A stretch of DNA of 64,000 nucleotides from Flavobacterium sp. 90 (GTDB lineage Bacteria > Bacteroidota > Bacteroidia > Flavobacteriales > Flavobacteriaceae): assembly GCF_004339525.1 (NCBI RefSeq), contig NZ_SMGE01000001.1:6386001-6450000 (forward strand). The letters run 5' to 3'. Shown here one piece after another: positions 2-21,531 of this stretch. The translations under genes and the position numbers were made by a program. The first letter of the stretch is position 1. Each line of letters starts with the position of its first letter. The notes below the pieces were generated by a model that saw nothing but the letters and a program-made list of their open reading frames with translations, ran no database searches and was not told the origin of the DNA.

Positions 2-445
2 CTGCCGTCCTGGGCAAAAGACATTGAGTTCAGAAAAAACACGCTCAATGCCCGCATAGAAACCATTGACGAGAAAGCGTCATTCAATAATATAACCCAT
101 AACCGCTGCCTGATAATCGCTTCGGCCTATTACGAATGGCACTGGAATGACGAAAAGGGAAAAAGCAAGGACAAGTACCAGATCAACTCGCAGGATGATG
201 AAATCTTCACTTTTGCAGGCTTGTATTCCACGTGGACGGATCCGGTAACCGATGAGATTAAAAACACCTACACCATGGTGACCACTAAAGCAAATAAGTT
301 AATGGACTTCGTGCACAACCACAAGCACAGGATGCCTATAATGCTTAAAAAACAGGATGAAACGGCTTGGCTGGACCAGTCGGTTAAAATAGAAGACTTT
401 GCCTTCCCCTATGAAGGGAACCTTATCGCATTTCAAACTAAATAA
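2..445 (+). CDS. SRAP (HMCES/YedK) family protein, 3' part
   Basis: The reading frame is open from the left edge to a stop at 445, so the start and the catalytic Cys2 lie outside the window. SRAP proteins attach covalently to abasic sites in single-stranded DNA through Cys2 and protect them. Seen here are the family landmarks: NARIET with Asn16 of the fragment, YYEW with Glu45, the FAGL strand, and HRMP with His109. These correspond to the active-site Asn, Glu and His of YedK. The gene runs toward a small hypothetical gene 11 bp downstream. SRAP genes often travel on mobile elements, which fits this island. The family call is firm; whether the missing N-terminus is intact cannot be seen. Confidence 0.88.
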   Translation: MPSWAKDIEFRKNTLNARIETIDEKASFNNITHNRCLIIASAYYEWHWNDEKGKSKDKYQINSQDDEIFTFAGLYSTWTDPVTDEIKNTYTMVTTKANKLMDFVHNHKHRMPIMLKKQDETAWLDQSVKIEDFAFPYEGNLIAFQTK

Positions 446-456
446 AATATCGTATT

Positions 457-903
457 ATGGGCAATAAAGTATTTTCTGCAGATCATTTTGTTAAATTCTT
501 TCTGGATGAACTCTATTCCAAAACACATTTCAAATATGAACACAACCCGGAAGTTATGGGGTTCTTTGAAGAAGATGATCCATATACAGACCATATCATG
601 TCTGCTCAGGAACATCTCAAAGAATTTATTTTATCCTCTGTCAAGGATAACTCAGAGAATTTAACACCGGAAGATATTCAAAAACTATATGAGAAAAAAA
701 TGGAACAAGTTTTTGATATTGTGCTGCCTGAAATCGAAAAATACATAAAAGACAAAGTTACTGTTGATGTAATTTGGCCAGATTCCATCAGATTAATTGA
801 CGATGGCAATGGCGGATTTAGATATTTTCAGCCGGGAATTGATGACCCCGCTCTTCTGGGCAGTTCAGATAATAGTACTGATATTGAGCATGGCCAGGAA
901 TAG
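457..903 (+). CDS. hypothetical protein, 148 aa
   Basis: I do not recognise this protein. It is acidic and mostly helical-looking, with no signal peptide or membrane segment, and no catalytic motif stands out. It begins 11 bp after the SRAP stop, so the two are probably co-transcribed. Its TAG stop directly abuts the stop of the convergent gene on the other strand, with no base between them. The start at 457 is the first ATG and has an A-rich upstream stretch typical of Bacteroidota starts. Confidence 0.6.
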   Translation: MGNKVFSADHFVKFFLDELYSKTHFKYEHNPEVMGFFEEDDPYTDHIMSAQEHLKEFILSSVKDNSENLTPEDIQKLYEKKMEQVFDIVLPEIEKYIKDKVTVDVIWPDSIRLIDDGNGGFRYFQPGIDDPALLGSSDNSTDIEHGQE

Positions 904-1266
904 TCACAGATAAATCAAAATGTCTTTCCCATCGGATTGAAGTTTAATTCCATCGGATTTTTCTATTGCTTCGAACAAAATATGATCAACCTGTTTTTCA
1001 GAAAGCATGTCATAATCTATTGGAAATTCCGTATCAAAATAAAACTCAAAATAACAGTTCTGCTCATTGACTTGCGCCATATCTTCCTCCAAATAATCTT
1101 CACAGTGGTCTATCTCAAATCCAAAATATTCTACCATTGCAGCACCTGTGTTGATCAGGGATGTAACAAAATCTATACAAACCTCATTTGGAATGGGTGC
1201 TCTGGCAGTAGATAATGTAAGTGTGTGGCTGTACATACTGCATTTTTTTACTAAATTTACAATCAT
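904..1266 (-). CDS. hypothetical protein, up to 120 aa
   Basis: This is an unrecognised small acidic protein. The C-terminal half is rich in Asp, Glu and aromatic residues and has no membrane segment. It converges with the 457-903 gene and the two stop codons touch at 903/904. A second in-frame Met at codon 11 (position 1236) is an equally plausible start. It lies downstream of the three-gene minus-strand set but is separated from it by 83 bp, so co-transcription is possible but not shown. Confidence 0.5.
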   Translation of the reverse strand: MIVNLVKKCSMYSHTLTLSTARAPIPNEVCIDFVTSLINTGAAMVEYFGFEIDHCEDYLEEDMAQVNEQNCYFEFYFDTEFPIDYDMLSEKQVDHILFEAIEKSDGIKLQSDGKDILIYL

Positions 1267-1349
1267 ATCACAAATCGCAGTAATTCAATTAATTATCAAA
1301 CTAAAGCAAAGTATTTGCAATTTAAAAGAAGTTCACATTTGACTAAACC

Positions 1350-2057
1350 TTAATTGTCAATGGAAAGTATTTGATAAATTTTTGTGCCGATACTTGTTCT
1401 GTAAATTAAAGTTTCTCCTCCCTTGACAACATATTTCTCGCTGGATTTCCAATCATCCTGATCTTCAACACTAACAGAGTTTGATTCTGCTGAACATAAT
1501 CCGGCATTTATAAGAAAATTATCTAGTTCCTCTAGACCAATTCCATTAGTTCCGTTTTGACCATACGCATTATCAGGCAGTTTCAAAAACTCTTCAAGGT
1601 CATAGAAATCAATCCTATTGATTATCATTGATGCTTTACAAAATTCCTGATAAGAAAGTTTCTCCTCAATAAAAGCAACAAAAAGTTTTGCTATTAAGGC
1701 AGAGGAAACATGATCGTGAGCATTGTTAATTATATGCAGCAATTTACTGCCAACCGATTGTCCATATTTTTTGCTTGAATTAATTCTCAAAACAGCATCT
1801 TTCCTTACTTCCATATCAACCTCTGATAATCCCTTAAGAAACGATAGCAGTTTTTTGGTAAACAAATAATTTTGAACCGAAAGTATCGTTTTTCCGGCTC
1901 CAATTATAGCTCCAATAACTGGTAGATCTTTTAAGATTCCTTCAACTCCTGAATGCTGATCCAATACCGCTTCTAAAACCTCCGTTGACACCTTACTTAA
2001 GTCAGATTCCAACAAAGTCTTTCCTAATGAATTTTCAAACTCATTCTCCTTATCCAT
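1350..2057 (-). CDS. uncharacterised soluble protein, 235 aa, of a defence-island type family
   Basis: The layout is an acidic N-terminus, a short Gly/Ile-rich segment at about residues 45-58 (PVIGAIIGAG), then helices with a pattern close to KLFVAFIEEKLSYQEF at about 125-140. The C-terminal third looks beta-rich and ends in a strand series. I have seen this general pattern in unnamed bacterial proteins but can assign no function. The Gly-rich segment is not a Walker A motif because the expected GKT/S context is incomplete. The gene follows the nuclease gene and a 76-aa gene on the same strand, with a 70-bp gap. This suggests one transcription unit. Confidence 0.65.
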   Translation of the reverse strand: MDKENEFENSLGKTLLESDLSKVSTEVLEAVLDQHSGVEGILKDLPVIGAIIGAGKTILSVQNYLFTKKLLSFLKGLSEVDMEVRKDAVLRINSSKKYGQSVGSKLLHIINNAHDHVSSALIAKLFVAFIEEKLSYQEFCKASMIINRIDFYDLEEFLKLPDNAYGQNGTNGIGLEELDNFLINAGLCSAESNSVSVEDQDDWKSSEKYVVKGGETLIYRTSIGTKIYQILSIDN

Positions 2058-2127
2058 ATTTTTACAATTGGTAAATTAATGTACTTAACAGATCCTCCTT
2101 TAAATACATAAAATATTAAACGTCAGT

Positions 2128-2358
2128 CTAATTGAGCTTCTGAACTTTTTCGAATAATTCTCTAAGTTCTTCTTCCGACTCACCCAATCCTCCATTACCC
2201 AAAATAATTGTAGGATTGGTAGGCATTATTTTTTGAATTTCCGACTCTATATAATCTAGTATAGGCTTAACGATTTTCATGTCTTCTTTAAAACGGGTAT
2301 CCATCTCATCCACAGAATTAAAATCGCAATATAGAAATTTAGCTAAATTTATTTTCAT
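2128..2358 (-). CDS. small helical protein, 76 aa
   Basis: This is an unrecognised short acidic protein predicted to be almost all helix. The chosen start (MKINLAKF) overlaps the 3' end of the nuclease gene by 20 bp and has an AGGAGG stretch about 11 bp upstream. In-frame Met codons at 2382 and 2403 would lengthen it to 84 or 91 aa and deepen the overlap to 44 or 65 bp. Overlap with the nuclease gene points to translational coupling and a joint role, for example as a regulatory or structural partner. That role is inference only. Confidence 0.55.
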   Translation of the reverse strand: MKINLAKFLYCDFNSVDEMDTRFKEDMKIVKPILDYIESEIQKIMPTNPTIILGNGGLGESEEELRELFEKVQKLN

Positions 2359-3535
2359 TTCCAACAGTTCCTCCTTCTCCATAAAAGGAAGAATAATCAC
2401 CATTTAAAACCATTTGACCAATTTTCAAAGCATCGTTTTTGTGGTCTTCAATTGATTCTTTTAAATCTGCTACTGCACCTTCGGTAAGCAGGTCTTTTAA
2501 AAAACCTAATTCACTTCTGCTGTAAATTGCTGCAAACTTATTGAACAGATATGGATTTAGTATGGATTTAGTAAATGGGGAAACATCAGTCTTTCCTGAA
2601 ATAAAGAGTAAAATGTATTTATTTATTTCTTCACCTAAATATTCTACAAAATGTTTAGAAAATTCTGACCTGATTACGGTTAACTTATTAATTAGCTCTG
2701 CATCTCTCGTAATCCTTTTATAAAAACCTAAATCATATCCGTAGACATCAAACAAACCAAAATACATTCTTTTTTCTTTTGGGATATGCTGAAGCTTAAC
2801 ACGTAACTTTTCTAAATCTTGATCATTTTTAAAACCAGTAAATTCAGCAAGTACCGTTCTAAGCATATCTTCACTCGCAACTTTTTCAACTTCGAAAAAC
2901 ATAGCTAAGATATCTTTGCTATTTTTTAGTTTCTGATCCAGATCATGCCCGGTAATTGGCTCTATTTTTATTTTACTGAGAATTGAAATAAGATCATCAA
3001 AAATATTCTCATATTTTAGATGTTTTAATGATTCATTGTCAGCTAATACTTCTTCCGTCCAAGGCTTTAACAATACCTCATCTATTGCATCTTTATTATA
3101 ATCAGTTAAAAACTTGGTCGCCGGTTCATTAAATCCTTTTAGTGCGACAAAATAATATGTGAAGTCTTCTAAGTCAGTAATTAAACTTTTATCCTTTATA
3201 GCATGAATTGCAAACTTTATAATTTCTCTACCAAGTCCCGGCTTGGTTATTAATCCTTCATATCTTTTACATTGTAATATCCCAACATTCTTTGATTTGA
3301 ATTGAAGCAATAAATCCCTTCCACGATCACTGCCTCCCTTCATAAGTAAGACCGAATCAATTTTATTCTTGTAGATCCCATTTTCGATATCTTTTTTAAA
3401 AATAAAATATGATAGCAGTTCAAATTCTCTGGCTCCTAAATATTCTAGTGGGTAATTTTTACCGCTAAATGCAGGAAATTTTCCAGCAATATTATCTAAT
3501 TCAACCTTTACTTCGACGTCACTTATAATATCCAT
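2339..3535 (-). CDS. Mrr-like PD-(D/E)xK nuclease protein, 398 aa
   Basis: Residues 30-100 look like the restriction-endonuclease fold of the Mrr type. A helix carries AREFE (Glu37/Glu39), followed by the strand pair GGSDRGRD (Asp74) and ILQCKR (Gln88, Lys90). This is the D...QxK arrangement of Mrr-like nucleases. The remaining 300 residues are helical and unrecognised and may be a sensor or partner-binding region. The gene leads a minus-strand set of three overlapping or closely spaced genes and is divergent from the HamA-like gene. Cleavage of invading DNA is a reasonable inference; the target and trigger are unknown. Confidence 0.72.
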   Translation of the reverse strand: MDIISDVEVKVELDNIAGKFPAFSGKNYPLEYLGAREFELLSYFIFKKDIENGIYKNKIDSVLLMKGGSDRGRDLLLQFKSKNVGILQCKRYEGLITKPGLGREIIKFAIHAIKDKSLITDLEDFTYYFVALKGFNEPATKFLTDYNKDAIDEVLLKPWTEEVLADNESLKHLKYENIFDDLISILSKIKIEPITGHDLDQKLKNSKDILAMFFEVEKVASEDMLRTVLAEFTGFKNDQDLEKLRVKLQHIPKEKRMYFGLFDVYGYDLGFYKRITRDAELINKLTVIRSEFSKHFVEYLGEEINKYILLFISGKTDVSPFTKSILNPYLFNKFAAIYSRSELGFLKDLLTEGAVADLKESIEDHKNDALKIGQMVLNGDYSSFYGEGGTVGNENKFS

Positions 3536-4008
3536 TTACAGAGAAAATTTGATTTCAATCAAAAATATGAATTTACATTCAAAGATAGATCTGTTATAAT
3601 GAAATAATAAAAAAACATTATTAATTCGAAAAAATATAGCCAAGATAGTGCATACAGTAAACAGTAGACATATTGTAGATTGTTCCCCTACCACAATCTG
3701 AGCAAACAATTGGCTATTACTTCTACTTTTCCTTTTTTTTCTATAGCGGAACATCTGATTTCTTATGACGAATTAAGATAAATAGTCTTGTTTGTCTGTT
3801 CTTTTAGAAACAATGTCGGGAATAGAACCAAACTCACAAGTCTTTTATCATTGACAAATGAGAATATAATTCAGAAGAAAAATGACTTCGCAAGTAAATT
3901 CCGTCTTCTATTTCAGCAAAAATCAAATAAAAATTACAGTTTGTGCAACTAATTCGTCATCAATATCTAAATAAATAATTAACTTTCTCGCAGTAAATTT
4001 CATACACT
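3536..4008. other. divergent intergenic region with 11-bp inverted repeat
   Basis: This AT-rich spacer separates the minus-strand nuclease set from the plus-strand HamA-like gene and must hold both promoters. I see a perfect 11-bp inverted repeat, ATGACGAATTA at 3765-3775 and TAATTCGTCAT at 3950-3960. The outer copy lies about 50 bp before hamA. A short open frame of 72 codons on the minus strand has low-complexity composition and is not credited as a gene. Confidence 0.4.
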
Positions 4009-4800
4009 ATGCCATACAACTATTCAAGAACTAACCATAATCCATTATTATACGAGATTGAGCTTACGGTAAATGATCGTAAACTACTTGCATCGCATGT
4101 TGGATTATTATTATTAGGAAAACATAGCCATGTCGCAACTATCCTTGCAGCTAAACATCGAAATGTATCCGCTTCTACCGATCAAATGATAAATCGCGCA
4201 CAAAGACAACTGGTTGTTAAAACAGATGTTGAAAGATGGAAACGTGACGGATGGCTTTTCCAAATGATGACTTGGATATCATTACGTGTGGAACAACACG
4301 GTCAAAAACTGATGTTACAGGCCCCTCATACTAACCCCGCACAGCACGGAATAGATGGATTGGGCTTAATATTAACTACGGCTAATACAGTTCAAAATTT
4401 AATAATTTCAGAAGATAAATATACTGAAAACCCACGCACCACATTGAAAAATGATGTTTGGCCGGAGTTTAATTTATTTGAAACAGGTGAATTCGATAGC
4501 CATTTAGTCACCCAGATAACGGTACTTCTTAGCAATTTGAGTGAAGCCGAAATTGACAGGATTATTGAAAACGATATCTATAATATTTCGAATCGAATCT
4601 ATAGAGCTGGTATAACTCCTAAATCGTCCCATTCAAATGCGAAGAAAAGAAAAAGACTTTTCAAAGGTTACGACAAATGTGTATCTGGAACAAATCACAA
4701 TAGAAGACAAGCATTAACATTCAGTCAACCTGATATAAGGACATGGATGGATGATTTTTCCGCCGAGATTTATGCATATTTAGAAACACAAAGACCATAA
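4009..4800 (+). CDS. hamA: HamA-like nuclease subunit (DUF1837 type) of a Hachiman-like system
   Basis: HamA is the effector nuclease of the two-gene Hachiman anti-phage system, held by the HamB helicase until DNA damage is sensed. The 263-aa length fits the family. The probable PD-(D/E)xK core is HGIDGL with Asp116 followed by the strand LIISEDKY with Glu135 and Lys137, an ExK signature. A lysine/arginine-rich patch lies near residues 212-220. It is followed after one base by a 1,048-aa superfamily 2 helicase, which is the Hachiman order. The name rests on this pairing and the motif spacing. A related nuclease-helicase system such as AbpAB is the main alternative. Confidence 0.65.
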   Translation: MPYNYSRTNHNPLLYEIELTVNDRKLLASHVGLLLLGKHSHVATILAAKHRNVSASTDQMINRAQRQLVVKTDVERWKRDGWLFQMMTWISLRVEQHGQKLMLQAPHTNPAQHGIDGLGLILTTANTVQNLIISEDKYTENPRTTLKNDVWPEFNLFETGEFDSHLVTQITVLLSNLSEAEIDRIIENDIYNISNRIYRAGITPKSSHSNAKKRKRLFKGYDKCVSGTNHNRRQALTFSQPDIRTWMDDFSAEIYAYLETQRP

Positions 4801-4801
4801 G

Positions 4802-7800
4802 ATGTACAATACTACAACGGAAGAAGTCATTAAAAAAGCTCCTCACATTGAGGGATTAAATACTGAAAATCTACCTCAGTATCTAACGAAAATTTACGCC
4901 CGAATTGTTTCAGTTAGAATGTCTTTGGATGGTTCTAAAAAACTTTCGCCAAAGCTAAAAAAAGATATTCACGAGTTAAGAAAACTTGCAAACAATTTAG
5001 AGTCATTTACTGTTCTTAGTAAGAAAGACAGCAATCAGGTATCAGCAGCTTTTGTAGCTGGAACTGCGCACAACTTACTTCAACTCATTAGGGATCAAAA
5101 ATATTCTTTTTCCCCACAAACATTAGAATCTCACAGTGTCCCAAATTGGATTTCCTCAATTTTATTATTTCTAATTGGTGACAGTCCTGCTGATGCCGCA
5201 GAAATCGCTGTAAGAATTGCAATTGGGACTGACGATTCCATTAAATTTCAATTATCAAATGCTATTCGTCTTTTAGCTATGGGAAATCTTGGAAGCTTAC
5301 GAGCACTTGAGCCCGCCACCAGAGATTACAATGATAATGAAATTGACATAGAAGCCGAAGATTATTTGTGGCTTCAGCTATTGTTAGGCCTTCAGCAAAT
5401 GGCATCAGTACTATTGGGTATTACATCGACCAGGGAAAGCTACTTTAAAAATGTAGTCGACTTGGCATCAATTGATATGACTTTCACGGATATAATAATT
5501 AAAAGGTGCTATTCTGCTCCATTTCACTTAGCCACACTACTTGATATTTTAGAGGATCGGCTTTTAAGCAGAGGGGTGATAAATGTAAAAGCACCAGCAG
5601 AAACAGTTCCAAAAGAATGGCATATGTTTTTACAAAAGCTTGCTGAATCTAGACCATATCTATGGGAAAATCATTTTGAAGCAGTGCACTCTGGATTCTT
5701 GGATTCTGGATGCTCTGCTGTGTTAACTTTTCCCACTGGTGCAGGTAAAACTACAGTAGCTGAGCTAAAAATCGCTTCTACAATTATGGCAGGCAAATCA
5801 GTATTGTATTTGGTACCCACACATGCCCTAGAGGATCAAATAAATCGTGATTTAAATACCCTTTTTGATTACATAGATTCAGACAAATTAGAAATTGGTG
5901 GTGAATTTACTGATTTTGAAAATGGAGTTCTTGAAACAATTAATGTCATGACACCTGAAAGGTGTCTAACACTTCTAGCAATTAATCCTGAAAGTTTTGA
6001 AGATATCGGACTAATTGTTTTTGACGAGTTTCATTTAGTACATGGCCGTGCTGAAAAACTTGATAAAAGAAGTCTCGACGCAATGTATTGCTTACTAAAA
6101 CTTTTTACTGAAGTTCCCGCAGCAGATTATTTACTAATATCTGCGATGGTTGAAAATGGAGAAGAAATTTCGTCATGGGTGGAACATGTGATTGGAAGGG
6201 AGTGTAAAACTTTTAATTCTGATTGGAAGCCAACCCGACAACTCCAAAGTTGTATAATTTATCCCAAAAATGAAATTAAAGAACTAGAAAAAATTATCTC
6301 AGATTTTCGAAAGAATTATAATGGAAAGACTGTGCCAACTAGGCTTAAAACGCAGATTAATTCAACAGCGCATCAGATTTACAGCCTTCGAAATAAATGG
6401 GAAGCAGACAAGCCAGATGATTTTTTTGTTAGAAAACTCTTTAACAAAAAATTTAACCTTGAAGTCAGTCCATATTGGAAAATTACCAGTAATAGAAATG
6501 CAGTAGCTAGCGAACTTGCAGCATTTTTTGTAAATGCTGGTATGAAAACTCTTTTATTCGTCAATAATCCTGTCGCTGCAAAAAGCACAGCCCGCAGACT
6601 TAATTCAAAACTTGATAAAAAAGATTTAGAATTAGAAACCTTTAACCAGCTAAATCAAGCTAGAATAACGAGTATTGAAATGGAGCTTGGAGATCTGCAA
6701 TATTCATTCTATAATCCTCTTTTTCAAGTTGCAGTACATCATGGTCTACTTCTACCGATTGAAAGACAATTAAACGAATCACTATTTAAATCTAAGGAAG
6801 GAATACACGCAATTGTCGCGACTGCGACTTTGGCGCAAGGTATAAATCTACCAGCCGAAGTAGTTATAATTGCTGGTGACGATCGATTTGATGAAGATAC
6901 AGATGGATCCGAAAAATTACTAGCTCATGAAATTTTAAATGCAGCTGGAAGAGCCGGAAGAGCTGGCACCGCAGCACAGGGAGTAGCAATATTGGTGCCA
7001 GGTCAAATCATAACTTTTGAAAACAAATTAACTGCTCCTACAGACTGGATTGAACTACAAAAAAGAGTTTTTGCTAAAAGTGACCAATGCCTTGTAATCA
7101 ACGATCCCATGACACAGTTTTTAGATGAAGTAACTGCATTTGATGATAATGAGCTGCTATCACAAAATGTTAACAGCCTCTTATTACGCCTTCATAGTGA
7201 CGAAACAGAAGAAGCCTCAATAAAAGCAATTTTCAGTAATTCTTTTGCATTTTTTAAAGCAAATTTGGAAGGTGATGATAAAATTTCAGCGAAAATAAAT
7301 GAACTAATTATAAAGCGGGAAAATCTTTCGCATGATCTTCTATATGACAAGTCAGTTGAAGCAATTAGTCTTAAGACTGGTATCAATCCTAATATTATTG
7401 AAAAATTAAGTAAGAGCATATCAGAATTAGACTTGGAACAGATTATCGCTTATTCAGTTTCAGATTGGATTAGTTGGTTCGTTAACTGGCTACAAAGTGA
7501 TGAAATTTACATTTATGAGATGTTTTCCAGCCCATCAAGTCGCGCACAGTTAGCAAGAGCACTGGGCTTAAAAGTCACAAACTATGACGTCAGCGCAATC
7601 AGTAAAAACCTTCATAAAATAGTGCCAATATTTGAGGCATATATTAGCGGCCAAAATTACGAAACTATAAACGAAATGATTCCAGGAAAATCTGACGAGT
7701 ATTTAAGCAAGTCTAGACATTTCATCTTGAGATTAGTACCGCATAAGAGCTTCGCTCTCGGTATAGTATCATTAACAATCAAGGAAATATTGTTCTCATA

Positions 7801-7948
7801 CGGCTACGAACCAGATGAAATACCCTATGTCATTAAAAACCTAGCTACAATGGTAAAAGAAGGTTTAGATACTGAAGAAAAATTACAATACAAAATTAAA
7901 CGAAGAACATTAATGCGTGTACAAATACACCGTATGTTTGAAATTTAA
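4802..7948 (+). CDS. hamB: HamB-like superfamily 2 helicase of a Hachiman-like system
   Basis: This is a large DNA helicase of the Ski2-like kind. Residues 1-290 are helical and have no named domain. Motif I is FPTGAGKT at about 310-317, motif II DEFH at about 408-411, motif III SAM near 447, motif V ATATLAQGINLP near 675-690, and motif VI NAAGRAGRAG near 713-722. A C-terminal region of about 300 residues follows. The gene starts one base after the HamA-like stop, so the pair is surely one operon. In Hachiman, HamB is reported to monitor DNA integrity and restrain HamA. The helicase assignment is certain; HamB identity depends on the partner. Confidence 0.75.
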   Translation: MYNTTTEEVIKKAPHIEGLNTENLPQYLTKIYARIVSVRMSLDGSKKLSPKLKKDIHELRKLANNLESFTVLSKKDSNQVSAAFVAGTAHNLLQLIRDQKYSFSPQTLESHSVPNWISSILLFLIGDSPADAAEIAVRIAIGTDDSIKFQLSNAIRLLAMGNLGSLRALEPATRDYNDNEIDIEAEDYLWLQLLLGLQQMASVLLGITSTRESYFKNVVDLASIDMTFTDIIIKRCYSAPFHLATLLDILEDRLLSRGVINVKAPAETVPKEWHMFLQKLAESRPYLWENHFEAVHSGFLDSGCSAVLTFPTGAGKTTVAELKIASTIMAGKSVLYLVPTHALEDQINRDLNTLFDYIDSDKLEIGGEFTDFENGVLETINVMTPERCLTLLAINPESFEDIGLIVFDEFHLVHGRAEKLDKRSLDAMYCLLKLFTEVPAADYLLISAMVENGEEISSWVEHVIGRECKTFNSDWKPTRQLQSCIIYPKNEIKELEKIISDFRKNYNGKTVPTRLKTQINSTAHQIYSLRNKWEADKPDDFFVRKLFNKKFNLEVSPYWKITSNRNAVASELAAFFVNAGMKTLLFVNNPVAAKSTARRLNSKLDKKDLELETFNQLNQARITSIEMELGDLQYSFYNPLFQVAVHHGLLLPIERQLNESLFKSKEGIHAIVATATLAQGINLPAEVVIIAGDDRFDEDTDGSEKLLAHEILNAAGRAGRAGTAAQGVAILVPGQIITFENKLTAPTDWIELQKRVFAKSDQCLVINDPMTQFLDEVTAFDDNELLSQNVNSLLLRLHSDETEEASIKAIFSNSFAFFKANLEGDDKISAKINELIIKRENLSHDLLYDKSVEAISLKTGINPNIIEKLSKSISELDLEQIIAYSVSDWISWFVNWLQSDEIYIYEMFSSPSSRAQLARALGLKVTNYDVSAISKNLHKIVPIFEAYISGQNYETINEMIPGKSDEYLSKSRHFILRLVPHKSFALGIVSLTIKEILFSYGYEPDEIPYVIKNLATMVKEGLDTEEKLQYKIKRRTLMRVQIHRMFEI

Positions 7949-8110
7949 CAGCTATTTATCAGATAATAAAATACAATTTATAAATAATTAAAGATCTAAT
8001 AATACTTTGGCATGAAATAGCATTAATGTGCTTTGCTAATCATTTCATTTTTAAAAGTATATTATGATTCTGATTAAGAAAACTAGAAATTATTTAAAAA
8101 AATTACAAAT

Positions 8111-8782
8111 ATGAAAAAATACTTTAAAGAAAACATTTTGTTTATAATTTCATTAATATCATTGTTACTTCTGTTATTGCCAATAATGGTCTTTTTATAT
8201 CATTTTGGCGGAAAACGATTTTCTGATGACCTTGCTCTTTGGGGAACTTTTGGCGATTTTATCGGCGGAACACTCAATACGGTTATTTCTCTCAGCAGTT
8301 TAATTATACTTGGTCTTCTTACGCATATTGTTAGTAAACAATCAAATGAAGAAAGCAAAAAAATAAATTTATTAATACGTAAGCTTGATTGTTATGACAA
8401 ACTAACTTCCTTTCTGCCAGAAATAACTGCTATAGGTAATGACTTAATTACGTCAACAGATGTTATTATGAATAAAGATCTAAAAGATGATGTAAGATTA
8501 GAACATTTAAAATCATTTCGAAAGTTAACTTTAGTCTTTAGGGAATTTTATCACTTTATACTTACATTCGACAGTAGATTTGGACATTTATTTGAATATA
8601 ACATGACTTCCGCTGATTTTCAGAATTTATTATACAATACAAATAAATTAAATAACTTTTGCGACGCGGTTGTGGCTAGAAAACTGGATACTCACATTAT
8701 TATTGAAAGTGGGGACGAATTAGCCGTCATGATTCATTATTATAATATTTTAATAGATAATTTAAAGAAAGAATTAAACTAA
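8111..8782 (+). CDS. two-helix membrane protein resembling putative AbiC phage-exclusion proteins
   Basis: Two hydrophobic segments lie at about residues 8-31 and 50-73, separated by WGTFGDFIGGTLN. A cytoplasmic helical region of about 150 residues follows. The FGDFxGG-LN segment between or entering the second helix is typical, from memory, of the putative phage abortive infection (putAbiC) family. The gene lies 162 bp after the HamB-like gene in the same direction, so it could be a third component or an independent membrane effector. The assignment is tentative, and the role of these proteins is poorly known even within the family. Confidence 0.55.
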   Translation: MKKYFKENILFIISLISLLLLLLPIMVFLYHFGGKRFSDDLALWGTFGDFIGGTLNTVISLSSLIILGLLTHIVSKQSNEESKKINLLIRKLDCYDKLTSFLPEITAIGNDLITSTDVIMNKDLKDDVRLEHLKSFRKLTLVFREFYHFILTFDSRFGHLFEYNMTSADFQNLLYNTNKLNNFCDAVVARKLDTHIIIESGDELAVMIHYYNILIDNLKKELN

Positions 8783-9531
8783 AAAACATCCCTTAATTAA
8801 GATAATTACAAATTTACATCTAAAACAATACGAATCCCGTTCAACTTTTTGTAGCAAAATTTGTTTGCCAAAAATGGAGTTACACTGCTTTTAGAAAAAT
8901 GTATAATCTCTTCATACCAAAGCCAAATGTTTATCGATTCGCATCGATACAAGTTATTTTTCCAATTTTGACAGATAATTTTAAACCTTGTCTCTAGTAT
9001 TTCGACAAAGTTACAGAAGTCAAGGGTCTATTAAATAAATTTATTTATTTGGTATTCATTCAGATTCTAGGACTTCAGCGGGGAAAATTACACTCTGCAG
9101 GTTCATGCACTTTATAAAACTCACTTCAAAACAATTACAAGAATATACTTTATTACAATACTATACTTATACTTTAATTAGCTGGCCATTTTCTTGCAAG
9201 CACGGTATTCTTTACTTTCCATTCCAATTAGAAGGTTTGCATAATGTGGGGCAAAACTGCTTAGACATATACTTGAAATTTTGCTGTAATTCACATCCCA
9301 AAATCTCAATAGATAAAGAAAAAGAGCATTAGCTTTAAACCCGACTAAATAGTACCAGTTTTTTTGCGTACAGTATCATTTGCTTTGATGCGGCCATCTG
9401 TGACGTTTTGCCACTTTTATTTTTATTAAAATAATACGAAGATCAGTCTACCAATATTCCACATACTTTACTGCTTCATTTTTCATTTCTTTATTGAAAC
9501 GCAATGTATTTGCTTCTAGTTTTTTCATTCG
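8783..9531. other. long non-coding gap with possible gene remnants
   Basis: No convincing gene is present in about 750 bp. A 75-codon plus-strand frame at 9105-9332 has unlikely composition. On the minus strand, translated pieces between 9140 and 9530 are protein-like but broken by stops, for example a 26-codon frame near 9529-9450 beginning MKKLEANTLRF. This suggests decayed mobile-element genes. No tRNA-like fold was found. Confidence 0.3.
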
Positions 9532-9631
9532 AAACGGGTGAAAAGGGCAGCCAAGATAGTGTCGCCCGGACGCTGCATGCGCATAACGGCTTCGTGCCCC
9601 TCCCCCGCCCTCCGGGACTTATAGCCCGTTT
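9532..9631. repeat. GC-rich nested inverted repeats
   Basis: This 100-bp stretch is markedly GC-richer than its surroundings. The outer arms AAACGGG (9532-9538) and CCCGTTT (9625-9631) enclose the inner arms CCCGGA (9565-9570) and TCCGGG (9611-9616), giving a long nested stem. It is followed immediately by a terminator hairpin. It could be a structured leader, a transfer origin or a recombination site of a mobile element. The sequence does not decide between these. Confidence 0.4.
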
Positions 9632-14657: not shown

Positions 14658-16472
14658 TTATTTTTTTAGAAGTGAAAAATATTTTAGGTCTAATCGATAA
14701 AGAGGATTTCTACCATTGATTTTTTCTTCTAGCATTTCAATAAGCTCCAAATCATTGAACGTTATAATCAGCTTTCCTTCTCCTAACAGCTCTTTTTGCT
14801 GGTCTTGAATAGACTGTTTACCCCCTAATCTTGAAAATATAAGAATGAAATTCCCTGTCTTTCCACTTAGATATTTTGTTGTTGAATGCATCGTATCGTA
14901 GTCAAATTCATCCTTATAGTTCTTAAATTCAACTATCAAAAGTTTAGCTTTGAAATCCACATTAATGCGACTCCAAAATGTTGAGGTTGATTGAAAACTG
15001 TTATGAACTATCAAATCTCTTCTTAAAGTGTCAGCTGAATTAGAAGCTTGCGTTTCTGCAATATAGGGAGCAAAGGAATCTGCAAAAAGAAATTTGAAAA
15101 CTTCTGCACCAATTTTTTCATAGTTTGGCCATCCCGCCTTTCCTCTAGGACAGTTACGTAGTTCTTTAATAAGTAATTTTCCTTCATTTATTTCATTTGG
15201 TTCGCCAAATGAAATAAGATTAAGTCTTGATTTAATAAAAAGATGTATTAATTCGCTATGGTCGTTTTGAAAATATAAATCTGTTAAATCTTTTATATAC
15301 TTGACTTTCACATGATTTTTTTCGAAATAATCAATAACAAGATTATCAGGTTTAGAGGTAAACATCACCTGCTTATTATACTTAGGCGAATAATTGTTTA
15401 ATTTTTCCAAAGTTGATTCAAGATCTTTCTCATTAATTTCTTTCTTGTTGAAAATCTTTAAACAGTCGTAAGTGGAATCTCCGTCAATGGTCAAAAATGT
15501 ATAGTCCTCAACATTGAACTTTACTTGTAAATTTCCATTTTTGATGAAAAATTTAACGAACTCAAACAATTCGTTTTCTCCAGCATGAGCCAAATAAATT
15601 GACAGTAATTCTCTATGTATGGTTTCCTTTGAGAAATTTTCATCAGAAATTTTCCAGTCGCTTTTCTTGATCCCAAACCAGGTCCATGAGCTAATTTGTT
15701 TATCAATTTTTTCGCAATTGTGTGGAGGTCTTGGAATAAAGTCTAAAATTTGTTCAGATAAATGAACTGAAGTATCGGTTGGATCTTCATACGACTGAAT
15801 GCGGCAAACTACCAGATCTTTTCTCTCATCGCAAAGATAGGCTTTGATACATTTTGCACTAAAGTTAAAATAGTTCGCTGCCAAGGGATAATGTTCACTT
15901 ATATAACTGCGGTAGAATGAAACTTTTTTATCTAATTGCTCTTTCAAATCTAAATAGACTGCGTGTTCTATTTTTTTGCACTTACCTTCGGTGGAATTAA
16001 TGTGTATTTTATTTTTTTCAATCAATTGTTTTATCGCCTCAGAAGGATCTTCAATATTTCGCAATCTAATTCGAAGTTGCAAACCATCATCTTTTTCACC
16101 GTCCAATCGATTTATCTCTTCTTGTATTTGTTTGGGCAGATGACACGAGGAAATAGTAAGTCTATTCAAGTGATAAAGTAGTTCGCCACCATACCAAATT
16201 TTACCAGTTAAAAGAGAACAAAGCTGGTCAGCAAGGTTTAAAACAAGTGTGCTTTGCTCTTCAACTAAGTCTTTACAATCTTCACTCTGTGCAATGTCTA
16301 GACATAATTTCGGCATTTCGATCTCCAATAGCTTATAATTACTAATTTCACTTAAAAGAGCAAATAGTTGATTCTTTAACAGAACGAATCTAATAATTTC
16401 ATCATTTTGAATCTTGCAAAGTGCATCAAAGTTTGAAACTAATTCTTCAAAATATTTTCGTGTTTCGGTCAT
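14658..16472 (-). CDS. protein with C-terminal PD-(D/E)xK nuclease domain, about 604 aa
   Basis: The N-terminal 400 residues are unrecognised and mostly helical. The C-terminal part has an endonuclease-like core: NYEKIGAEVFKFLF (Glu), then TLRRDLIVHN with Asp near residue 484, then LLIVEFKNYKDE with Glu and Lys near 512 and 514. A YLSG...FILIFSR segment follows. This RRD...E(C/F)KNY pattern is typical of nuclease domains in orphan defence proteins. The start at 16472 (MTETRKYF) was preferred because the 28 residues before it, from an ATG at 16556, look unlike protein. Degradation of phage or self DNA is inferred. Confidence 0.7.
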   Translation of the reverse strand: MTETRKYFEELVSNFDALCKIQNDEIIRFVLLKNQLFALLSEISNYKLLEIEMPKLCLDIAQSEDCKDLVEEQSTLVLNLADQLCSLLTGKIWYGGELLYHLNRLTISSCHLPKQIQEEINRLDGEKDDGLQLRIRLRNIEDPSEAIKQLIEKNKIHINSTEGKCKKIEHAVYLDLKEQLDKKVSFYRSYISEHYPLAANYFNFSAKCIKAYLCDERKDLVVCRIQSYEDPTDTSVHLSEQILDFIPRPPHNCEKIDKQISSWTWFGIKKSDWKISDENFSKETIHRELLSIYLAHAGENELFEFVKFFIKNGNLQVKFNVEDYTFLTIDGDSTYDCLKIFNKKEINEKDLESTLEKLNNYSPKYNKQVMFTSKPDNLVIDYFEKNHVKVKYIKDLTDLYFQNDHSELIHLFIKSRLNLISFGEPNEINEGKLLIKELRNCPRGKAGWPNYEKIGAEVFKFLFADSFAPYIAETQASNSADTLRRDLIVHNSFQSTSTFWSRINVDFKAKLLIVEFKNYKDEFDYDTMHSTTKYLSGKTGNFILIFSRLGGKQSIQDQQKELLGEGKLIITFNDLELIEMLEEKINGRNPLYRLDLKYFSLLKK

Positions 16473-16556
16473 ATTATTATAGAGCCTTTTCCTCTGGTAG
16501 GTAATAGATTGGCTATGTAACGAAATTAAGTCGTATTTTCGGAATTGACAAGTCAT

Positions 16557-17159: not shown

Positions 17160-18407
17160 ATGAAAGGAATAAAACTAATAGAGAATAAAAAGTTAGCTAC
17201 TAAAAGCACTTTCATAGTAGAAATTAATGGCAATAAAACAAAATTTCTTGCAAAAGAAATTTTGTCAAACGGAACTATCAAATATTATCCCTTTTACGAA
17301 AAAGATGGGAAAATAGAACATAAATATAAATCAATAGTTTGCATAAGTACTGAATCAAAAACTATAATTAAATCCGGGATTTCAGTTAACGAAGCAAAAG
17401 GTTTTGGTTTCACAAGTCCTAAGGGCGTTTCTAATTTTTTCTACTTTTTTCAAGAAAAATTTCCGGCTATCAATGAAATATTAATTACTTCAAATCAGGA
17501 GACCAAAATTGAGAAAACTAAATTGATTCTTAATGTAAAAGATTTCAATGCAATAGAAAAAAGGACAGGAGGATTCGTGGAAAACAAAAAAAATGAAAGC
17601 CAGAATCTTTATCAATCTATTTTACATAAGCTACTTCCTTCAGAAATTGATTCGCCAACTAAGTCAAATTATGTAAGCGGTACGCTTCAATCATTTATTG
17701 ATCGATATACTAATATAAAGTTTTCAAAAGAAGAGACTGAAGAATTAACAGATATGTTAATTAATTCAGGTTTACCGCATGAAACTTTAATTGCTGCAAA
17801 AACAGAATTTGATATTGTTTATATTGAGGACATAGTTAATGAATACAAAGAAAATTTGAAGCAGACAACAGATACACCTACACTTGAAGAAAAATGGCAT
17901 CAGTTTTTTAAAAAACATACATGGATTTTTAGTCAGATTTTTTCATTTCCTGCCGTATTTCTAGGTGAAAAAGTAAATGTCGGAGGGCATAACATTACTG
18001 GAAGCAAAGATAAAATCGTAGATTTTCTGTACAGAAACAAAATAAATAATAACATCGCCTTTATCGAAATTAAAACACATTTAACCACATTAGTTGCTGC
18101 AACTGAATACCGCAATGACTTGTATCCCGTTAGCAATCAATTAACAGGTGCAATAATCCAAGTTCTAGACCAAAAAAACACGTTGCTTAAAAATTATCAC
18201 ACAATAGTAGGTAACGAAGCTGAATCTCTTAACTCAATTTGCGTCGTTATTGCTGGCGATACCTCAAAATATAAAAAGAAAGGACAAGGTTCTTCATTTG
18301 AATTGTTTAGATGGAGCAATAAAGATGTTCTAATTATTCCTTTTAATGAACTACTTGAAAAAATTGAAAATTTATTAGATTTATTTAAGAAGAAAAAAAT
18401 TGATTAA
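17160..18407 (+). CDS. sduA: Shedu anti-phage nuclease SduA (DUF4263)
   Basis: Shedu is a single-gene anti-phage system whose SduA protein carries a PD-(D/E)xK-type nuclease, the DUF4263 domain. The first 230 residues are an N-terminal region of variable type. The DUF4263 core spans about 240-410. EEKWHQFF opens it, KIVDFLY carries Asp288, FIEIKTH carries Glu303 and Lys305, and the SNQLTGAIIQV helix carries Gln327. A late strand LFRWSNKDVLIIP closes it. These are the expected residues and order. The 415-aa length is normal. It stands alone between unrelated genes, as Shedu usually does. Confidence 0.85.
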   Translation: MKGIKLIENKKLATKSTFIVEINGNKTKFLAKEILSNGTIKYYPFYEKDGKIEHKYKSIVCISTESKTIIKSGISVNEAKGFGFTSPKGVSNFFYFFQEKFPAINEILITSNQETKIEKTKLILNVKDFNAIEKRTGGFVENKKNESQNLYQSILHKLLPSEIDSPTKSNYVSGTLQSFIDRYTNIKFSKEETEELTDMLINSGLPHETLIAAKTEFDIVYIEDIVNEYKENLKQTTDTPTLEEKWHQFFKKHTWIFSQIFSFPAVFLGEKVNVGGHNITGSKDKIVDFLYRNKINNNIAFIEIKTHLTTLVAATEYRNDLYPVSNQLTGAIIQVLDQKNTLLKNYHTIVGNEAESLNSICVVIAGDTSKYKKKGQGSSFELFRWSNKDVLIIPFNELLEKIENLLDLFKKKKID

Positions 18408-18986: not shown

Positions 18987-19724
18987 TTAAGGACTAGTAA
19001 AATTTTCAATAATCTTTATAAGTCCTTTCTGTTCATCATCTTTGAGATGCGTTTTAATGCTTTGCTCTTCAACATCTTTTAGAGCCTCAGCAAAGGTTAG
19101 TTTTAAAAATTTCGCGGCTCTGTCCTGTCTGCTTACTTTAAAATAATTCCATATATTCCAGCCAAAATGATACAAATCAAGATTGGACAGATCTACTACT
19201 TTTACTGGCTTAATATTTTCGAAATTTATGCCTTCAGCATATATGATTATATTCTTAACCAACTGCTTCAAATCATTATCCGCCGCATACAGCGCGAACT
19301 CCAGCTGCGTATAACGAATGGCAATATCAATTCTGGTCTGTTTCTGATTTTTGACTGCATTCTGCCTCTCTTCCCTTATCTGTTCAATATCCCTGGCTAA
19401 ATCTTTATTTTCAGACAATTCGGTTTTAATTAAAACATCCTTCTGCTCCTCTGGGTCTTCATTTGGAGTGAGCCTTTCAGGTGATTCATTTTTTTCTCTC
19501 TGCAAGAAACGATTCAGTAATCTCTCAGCCAATTCGTTTAGAAATAAACTTAGAATTGCAAACATTAAAACTCCAAATCCAGTGCTGATCCAAAAGAAAA
19601 CGCCGGCTGTATATTCATCCGCCCCTTTTTCCAGCAGCACCAGTCTTCCGATTGCGCCGATAAAGACACAGACTAAAAAAACAGACAGGTAAACTGCAAT
19701 ATATTCGAAATACTTTATTTTCAT
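18987..19724 (-). CDS. integrase-linked membrane protein with coiled coil, 245 aa
   Basis: Two hydrophobic segments lie at about residues 8-28 and 41-64, followed by a charged helical stretch at about 75-130 and a soluble C-terminal domain. I recognise no family. Its start codon overlaps the integrase stop by four bases (19721-19724), so it is translationally coupled to the recombinase. A link to control of island transfer or to entry exclusion is possible but is inference. Confidence 0.7.
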   Translation of the reverse strand: MKIKYFEYIAVYLSVFLVCVFIGAIGRLVLLEKGADEYTAGVFFWISTGFGVLMFAILSLFLNELAERLLNRFLQREKNESPERLTPNEDPEEQKDVLIKTELSENKDLARDIEQIREERQNAVKNQKQTRIDIAIRYTQLEFALYAADNDLKQLVKNIIIYAEGINFENIKPVKVVDLSNLDLYHFGWNIWNYFKVSRQDRAAKFLKLTFAEALKDVEEQSIKTHLKDDEQKGLIKIIENFTSP

Positions 19725-20980
19725 TGCGCTTTTTTCTTTAAAGATTCCAATTGTATTGCTTCTGATGCTATGTTTTTCTTCTCATCTATTACTTTTGCAT
19801 AGATTTGGGTAGTTTTTACGTTGGTATGCCCCAGCATTTTGCTGACTGTGTAAATGTCTGTGCCGCTCGATAGCTGAAGTGTTGCAAATGTATGGCGGAA
19901 GCAGTGGAAGGTAATATTTTTTTTAATGCCTGCTGATTCAACCCACTTTTTAAGAGGGCGTGAAATCCACGACGGGTCCGGCAAATCCTCAAAAACAAGC
20001 TGCGCGGGAAGCCGTGGTTCACCGCATAGCTGAAAGGCCTGCTGGGAAATAGGCATATATTCGACACCTTTTGTCTTTTTCTGCGTAAAATGCAGCTTAG
20101 CCATACCATCTTCCAGACTTATCTCTTTCCAGCGGAGTTTCTGAATGTCGGAGTGCCTCAGACCTGTAAGGGCTGAGAAAAGTGCGGCTCTTTTAAGGAC
20201 GTCTTTTTCGCAAGTCGTTGATGCCAGTACATTCAATTCTTTAATGGTCAGATATTCACGTCTTGACTCCTGATCCGGAATGCCCTTTATTTTTGAAGAT
20301 AAATCAACTGTTAGATATCCGTCGATAAAGGCCTGTTTTAAAGCCGCTTTAAAAATAGAGAAATACCTTGCCGCAGTGTTGCGGGACAAGGTTCCTTTTT
20401 TGCCTCCTCCGAGCGGAGCGCCCAGCAGAAACAATTTAAAATCTTCCGCCATTCTGCTGTCAACCGCGGAAAACATCAGGGTACCTTTGGAATAGCTTTT
20501 TAAAAATTCTTTGGTCCGCTTCCAATTGATCTGAATGGATTTTGAACCTTGGGCGTGTCTCTTAGCCGCCACAGCAGCTAGATATTTAATAAAATCCTCT
20601 TTTCCTTTCTCTTTCTGTTCAGCCAATAAGTTATCAGCATCACTGTACAGATCTATATTATCGTATTCCTTCTGCCGGATTTTACGCACTCCGTCAGCAT
20701 ATAGCATTATTTCACGGTCGTTTTCGCTTCTGCACATTATTATCCCGTTATCGCTGCGTCTGGGTTTGTAGGATTTAGTTCCGTCTGCATCTGTCCGGGC
20801 AGCTCTTTTCTTGTCCCACTCCACAGTTGTTACGGCTCTATTTAAATATTCACGGATTCTCTGAGGAGTTTTCTTTCCGGAAACCTCAACAGGATAGCTT
20901 TCTATGTAAACATACCATTCATTTCGTTCTTCTGCCTTTCGAAGACGAACAGTCACTTTGGTTTTTGCTAATTGTTTCAT
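19721..20980 (-). CDS. tyrosine recombinase / site-specific integrase
   Basis: This enzyme cuts and rejoins DNA at attachment sites and probably integrates and excises the island. The N-terminus (1-130) resembles the arm-binding domain of Bacteroidota integrases, the SAM-like core-binding domain spans about 130-225, and the catalytic domain follows. The catalytic residues are Arg275 (TGLR), a Lys near 304, His359 and Arg362 (HCFRHTF), His385 (LGHTN) and Tyr394. The set is complete and the 419-aa length is normal, so it appears active. Its start overlaps the upstream zinc-finger gene by four bases. Confidence 0.93.
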   Translation of the reverse strand: MKQLAKTKVTVRLRKAEERNEWYVYIESYPVEVSGKKTPQRIREYLNRAVTTVEWDKKRAARTDADGTKSYKPRRSDNGIIMCRSENDREIMLYADGVRKIRQKEYDNIDLYSDADNLLAEQKEKGKEDFIKYLAAVAAKRHAQGSKSIQINWKRTKEFLKSYSKGTLMFSAVDSRMAEDFKLFLLGAPLGGGKKGTLSRNTAARYFSIFKAALKQAFIDGYLTVDLSSKIKGIPDQESRREYLTIKELNVLASTTCEKDVLKRAALFSALTGLRHSDIQKLRWKEISLEDGMAKLHFTQKKTKGVEYMPISQQAFQLCGEPRLPAQLVFEDLPDPSWISRPLKKWVESAGIKKNITFHCFRHTFATLQLSSGTDIYTVSKMLGHTNVKTTQIYAKVIDEKKNIASEAIQLESLKKKAQ

Positions 20981-21531
20981 ATAAATTCATTTCCGTTATA
21001 CAAATTATCAATTTCCATTTTGGGGGCATACACATACTTTCCGATCTGTCTGGTAGGGATTGAATATTTTCTGATATGGCTGTAGACAGAACCTTCAGAT
21101 ATTTGAAATCTCCGAGCTATTTCGCCGATTGAATAGCAGTCCTCTTTTTCAAGGCTGTATAATTTTTTCTTCGGTCCGCTTTTTACCTGAGGCAACCTTC
21201 GTGCAGGGCCGAACATCTCTTCCATAACTGTCCGGTCTATTCTTATAAGGCGGGCTCCAAGATTAACTGAAGGAATTTTTCCCTCACTGACAAGCCGGTA
21301 AAGAGATTTATTGTGAATGCCAAAAAGCATGCCAGCTTCAGGAACAGAAAGAAATACCCTGTTCTCGGGTATTTTATCCGTAAGCGCTTTGAGTTCCTCT
21401 TCAATTTTAAGCCGTTTCATCTTCAGCTTGTATGCTTTTTTACTGCATAGATGGGAGCAGTAAACAGAAGTGACGGTTTTAGGAAGAAATTCCTCCCCGC
21501 AGTTAAGACATTGTTTATTCGTTCTTTTCAT
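20977..21531 (-). CDS. zinc-finger and double helix-turn-helix protein, 184 aa
   Basis: The N-terminus has a four-cysteine zinc site (Cys8, Cys11, Cys25, Cys29) of the C-x2-C...C-x3-C form. Two HTH_17-type domains follow, at about residues 60-110 (SVPEAGMLFGIHNKSLYRLV) and 130-180 (SIGEIARRFQISEGSVYSHI). It heads the integrase operon and overlaps the integrase by four bases. A role as recombination directionality factor or operon regulator is likely. The duplicated HTH could bridge two sites in the attachment region just upstream. Confidence 0.78.
   Translation of the reverse strand: MKRTNKQCLNCGEEFLPKTVTSVYCSHLCSKKAYKLKMKRLKIEEELKALTDKIPENRVFLSVPEAGMLFGIHNKSLYRLVSEGKIPSVNLGARLIRIDRTVMEEMFGPARRLPQVKSGPKKKLYSLEKEDCYSIGEIARRFQISEGSVYSHIRKYSIPTRQIGKYVYAPKMEIDNLYNGNEFI

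Follow-up and report, generated by a model that had tools for sequence, protein, structure and literature searches.

We analysed a window of 64,000 nucleotides from the genome of Flavobacterium sp. 90 and focused on a minus-strand locus at positions 1350-3535. Three open reading frames (ORFs) of 398, 91, and 235 amino acids are present there (Table 1), as described in an original prediction based on the DNA letters, which considered them as three genes of one possible new defence system: an Mrr-like nuclease, a small helical protein whose ORF overlaps the nuclease ORF, and a protein of unknown family. Comparison with homologous proteins indicates that the 398-aa and 91-aa ORFs encode opposite ends of a single protein of ~470 aa.

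The search with the 398-aa protein yielded 20 proteins; apart from the query, these were 19 single proteins with lengths of 454-503 aa. Residues 7-91 of the 91-aa ORF, which had been taken for a separate small protein, aligned at 61% with residues 391-475 of the 475-aa homologue P0003, and its residues 6-90 aligned at 54% with residues 387-471 of another homologue, P0007. The profile of the nuclease family also detected the 398-aa and 91-aa pieces separately within the window. Finally, a further genome of the genus, G869, has the same locus, and there the nuclease gene is intact and encodes 468 aa in one open frame. Residues 1-388 of this protein are identical to the 398-aa ORF, whose last 10 residues are unrelated, and its residues 384-468 correspond at 95.3% to the 91-aa piece. 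The DNA of the nuclease gene region is 99.7% identical between the window and G869, with 3 mismatches and one gap. The alignment to this intact allele indicates that the overlap of the two ORFs is a frame break inside a single gene and not, as had been proposed, the coupling of two genes. In Flavobacterium sp. 90, the reading frame breaks off after residue 388, through either a mutation or a sequencing error.

Table 1. Features of the 64,000-nucleotide window, by position in the window.
Feature	Position	Strand	Basis or remarks
120-aa ORF	904-1266	-	One-base gap relative to G869, where the ORF has 100 aa
235-aa protein, member of a distinct uncharacterised family	1350..2057	-	N-terminus helical; possible winged-helix C-terminus (weak)
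C-terminal piece of the broken nuclease gene, 91-aa ORF	2128..2403	-	Other frame; residues 7-91 resemble the last ~85 of intact homologues
65-base overlap of the nuclease frames, where continuity is lost	2339..2403	-	Comparison of frames and homologues
N-terminal piece of the broken ~470-aa nuclease gene, 398 aa	2339..3535	-	Residues 1-388 homologous, final 10 out of frame
HamA-like partner of the neighbouring helicase, 263 aa	4009..4800	+	Position and inspection by eye; no Pfam or PADLOC match
HamB-like DEAD-box helicase, 1048 aa	4802..7948	+	PADLOC HamB models, best E 4.3e-37
Cassette, 97-100% identical to G869 (500-base steps)	158..9625	.	Backbone 82-92% just upstream, 91% just downstream
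632-aa protein, nuclease-like C-terminus by eye	14658-16556	-	No Pfam match over cut-off, no PADLOC match
Shedu defence gene	17160-18407	+	Pfam SduA_C E 1.1e-20, PADLOC SduA E 2.9e-61
Tyrosine integrase close to dnaK, probably marking one end of the carrying element	19721..20980	-	

Two other explanations of the break were considered. A programmed ribosomal frameshift, which would produce the full-length nuclease alongside a shorter one, could account for the 65 shared bases and for the conservation of both pieces in sequence, but the 19 relatives and the nearly identical G869 allele all encode the protein in a single frame. Moreover, a +1 shift would be required, whereas the sole X XXY YYZ heptamer of the overlap would give a -1 shift and sits beyond the point where the homology of the first frame ends. 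Programmed frameshifting is therefore very improbable. Alternatively, the break could merely be an error of sequencing or assembly, such that the nuclease of this strain works; this is otherwise compatible with the explanation that we favour below. The single gap that separates the gene from its intact allele points in this direction, as does the comparison of a 9.6-kb block with G869, which contains 3 gap openings and 72 mismatches, one of the gaps being in the neighbouring 120-aa ORF. The indirect evidence to the contrary is that the 6.65-Mb assembly forms one contig rated 100% complete, and that the cluster of the 398-aa protein includes a second database member, which is known by its membership and not by its sequence. 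We regard such an error as a serious candidate with somewhat less than an even chance.

The 398-aa ORF presents a GRD at residues 72-74 and a QCK at residues 88-90. The nuclease family that we assembled comprises 139 proteins, 130 of which are full-length (one family search scored only the 7995 candidates with the most shared words). Among these full-length relatives, E39, D74, and Q88 are kept in 130/130 and K90 in 129/130. This conservation of D74 and K90 indicates that the motif did not arise by chance, and the D...QxK nuclease core with Asp74 and Lys90 had thus been correctly recognised. Based on a model of P0003, the PD-(D/E)xK/Mrr-like domain extends approximately from residue 20 to residue 220. 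The catalytic core resembles that of the restriction nucleases of the Mrr family (PF04471, Mrr_cat), which matched 18 of the 20 members of our alignment A1 at E <= 0.1. However, some family members are under the curated cut-off of 21 bits, including the window piece (13.4 bits) and P0003 (17.4 bits, against 24.0 for P0007), and the domain that accompanies the core is unlike that of classical Mrr proteins. No published description of the nuclease family was found among the papers listed, as judged from titles and abstract starts in a library with few subscription papers and no preprints, and the family is apparently undescribed.

The genome searches covered samples of 100 relatives, 395 genomes of the phylum, 395 of the order, and 398 of the genus. 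For the nuclease, nine genomes of the genus sample presented a match. The full form of the nuclease was found in three of them, including the broken copy of Flavobacterium sp. 90. The first ~240 residues alone were found in proteins of ~873 aa (two genomes) and of ~1520 aa (six genomes), with two genomes having both kinds. Domain scans covered three of these fusion proteins. The 873-aa protein scanned (L055) carries NACHT and SNaCT5 domains, and its module aligns with the nuclease through residue 237 with 29% identity. In each of the two ~1520-aa proteins scanned (L006 and L057), we found an AAA match together with weak matches to novel-STAND models and matches to PADLOC PDC-M54A. NACHT and STAND-like antiphage proteins, including those of Flavobacterium, share an Mrr-like effector module with the window family, but the latter has no NTPase sensor in its chain and ends instead with ~200 helical residues of unknown fold. 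The presence of the same module in differing architectures argues that the N-terminal part is the effector and that the remainder is a control part. In one locus (L038, 10863-15166), the STAND-like fusion of the module is adjoined by three genes that by eye resemble an ABC-three-component (Lamassu-like) system, one of them encoding an ABC-type ATPase.

The window family also resembles LmuA, the nuclease of Lamassu. According to a review (PMC10586767), LmuA has its effector at the N-terminus, and its C-terminal domains, which vary, may serve to dock it. The likeness concerns the N-terminal nuclease domain: LmuA structures were among the top structural rows, and alignment A1 compared to a true LmuA (L025) using hhalign matched over residues 51-166 (probability 62%, E 7.6e-5). 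The PADLOC LmuA model PDLC03852 matched some relatives (P0007, E 3.3e-8), with the window piece and the intact G869 copy unmatched. The C-terminal half of the window family, however, is another helical region. We detected no Pfam match to the C-terminal docking domain (CTD) of LmuA in the 20 members of A1 (E <= 0.1) or in the intact P0003 and P0007 (E <= 1); an Aminobacter LmuA scanned alongside matched CTD6 with an E-value of 2.3e-44. No LmuB or LmuC gene adjoins the nuclease in the loci that we read. An SMC-like LmuB was absent from the 10 window ORFs scanned, and none is annotated beside the nuclease genes of E. coli and Agrobacterium. One locus (L003) contains what by eye is a DndD-like ATPase ~7 kb away from the nuclease. 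Finally, neither the two nuclease pieces of the window nor the intact relatives scanned matched any SduA model of Shedu.

The 488-aa E. coli homologue WP_000723924.1 was found in 30 of 5426 E. coli genomes. In the two chromosomes that we read, it is located downstream of the pinE invertase, and a GIY-YIG gene (WP_000355484.1) lies ~1.2 and 2.5 kb away. This gene was assigned to PD-T4-3 by PADLOC (E 2.4e-140 for the D2 copy, which was the one tested). The nuclease is followed by an integrase in D2 and by a type IV toxin-antitoxin pair in the other chromosome. The E. coli relative sits in a prophage near PD-T4-3, a system that reportedly traces back to the selection of Vassallo et al.; this spelling gave no match in the searched text of that paper (PMC9519451). 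In two of the listed E. coli records (ECONIH5 and PD7; NZ_CP026202.1 and NZ_CP074047.1), insertion sequence (IS) elements, of the IS5 family and IS1, lie inside the matched nuclease gene, so that loss of the nuclease gene may recur.

The 235-aa protein belongs to a family of its own, and its association with the nuclease was evaluated from neighbourhoods. These counts cover the loci that were fetched, leaving out the metagenome contigs behind most relatives of both proteins, and L053 was left out as the same record as L002, which was already covered. A gene of the 235-aa family was found in the flanks read of 0/4 independent lineages of the ~480-aa nuclease (F. sasangense, a Bacteroidales metagenome-assembled genome, E. 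coli, and Agrobacterium) and in those of 0/10 loci of nuclease-module fusions; conversely, the nuclease was found at 0/14 loci of the 235-aa family. The three genes had been expected to occur together in other genomes if they formed one system, and the 235-aa gene was beside the nuclease in no independent locus examined. Because two of the supposed genes are one broken gene and the third is absent beside the nuclease in independent loci, the three-gene unit is refuted; the adjacency of its genes in this one cassette is all that speaks for it, and we would assign it next to no probability. The part of the original proposal that stands is a role of the nuclease in defence, for which the support is indirect. 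It is also conceivable that the nuclease and the 235-aa protein form a two-gene unit, with the latter as a regulator or an immunity protein. Both genes are on the same strand with 70 bases between them in the window and in G869, no terminator-like site was found in 850-4100, and the possible winged helix would fit a regulator. This reading nevertheless appears unlikely given the absence of pairing at all of the loci counted above. In addition, the hit lists of the two proteins have no longest contig of equal size in common, and the sole joint site is one recently copied cassette. Elsewhere, genes of the 235-aa family adjoin a SIR2 gene or, in one case on a 110-kb plasmid of Klebsiella, a gene with an FRG domain (PADLOC PDC-S15) (L036, 6150-7923; L022, 5935-7661), and it is possible that the family is a defence partner in such loci. 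A second, distant copy is located in the same genome at ~3.289 Mb (L037, 6857-7588), near a gene that by eye is integrase-like.

The Hachiman-like neighbour of the nuclease was confirmed by the match of its 1048-aa protein to PADLOC HamB (Table 1). In L061, a similar HamB-like gene and a STAND-like protein fused to this nuclease module lie ~2 kb apart. The jump in identity to G869 relative to the flanks indicates a recent exchange of the cassette, which contains the Hachiman-like pair, the 235-aa gene, and the broken nuclease. Relaxase-like and coupling-protein-like genes, named by eye, are located upstream of the window (L039, 3484-6763), and the carrying element, which also includes the Shedu gene of Table 1, is probably an integrative mobilisable element. 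At 19721-21531 on the minus strand, the tyrosine integrase and an HTH gene lie beside dnaK.

Overall, the explanation that we consider best, and moderately probable, is that the locus consists of one broken nuclease gene and an independent 235-aa gene, both located in a defence cassette that an integrative element carries, and that the intact protein most likely provides defence on its own, as a nuclease controlled by a helical domain. The defence role is supported indirectly by the module common to NACHT and STAND-like proteins, by the likeness to LmuA, by the relatives found in a prophage and on mobile elements, and by the recently exchanged cassette shared with the Hachiman-like pair. The intact ~470-aa protein most likely works alone. 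Its N-terminal ~240 residues would cut DNA as a PD-(D/E)xK nuclease of the Mrr/LmuA type, and the ~200 helical residues of its C-terminus may keep this nuclease inactive. Once infection is sensed, the C-terminal half would drive the assembly of the protein into an active oligomer. In the fusion relatives, a NACHT or STAND-like sensor takes the place of the helical half. The product encoded in Flavobacterium sp. 90 keeps the catalytic domain but lacks the last ~80 residues, and unless a sequencing error explains the break, this copy probably does not function as a system.

This locus illustrates that a broken gene can mimic a multi-gene operon in raw sequence. More tentatively, and with a probability that we place just short of even, the ~475-aa family might be an unrecognised single-protein antiphage nuclease of Bacteroidota and Proteobacteria, in which a new helical domain, sensing infection directly, controls an effector of the LmuA/Mrr type within the same chain; elsewhere, this effector would be under the control of NACHT, STAND, or SMC-like sensors. 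If the family is indeed a defence system, it would represent a very simple form of the effector module found in NACHT and STAND-like proteins and probably in those of Lamassu, and with a single gene it would be easy to test how such a nuclease is silenced and switched on.
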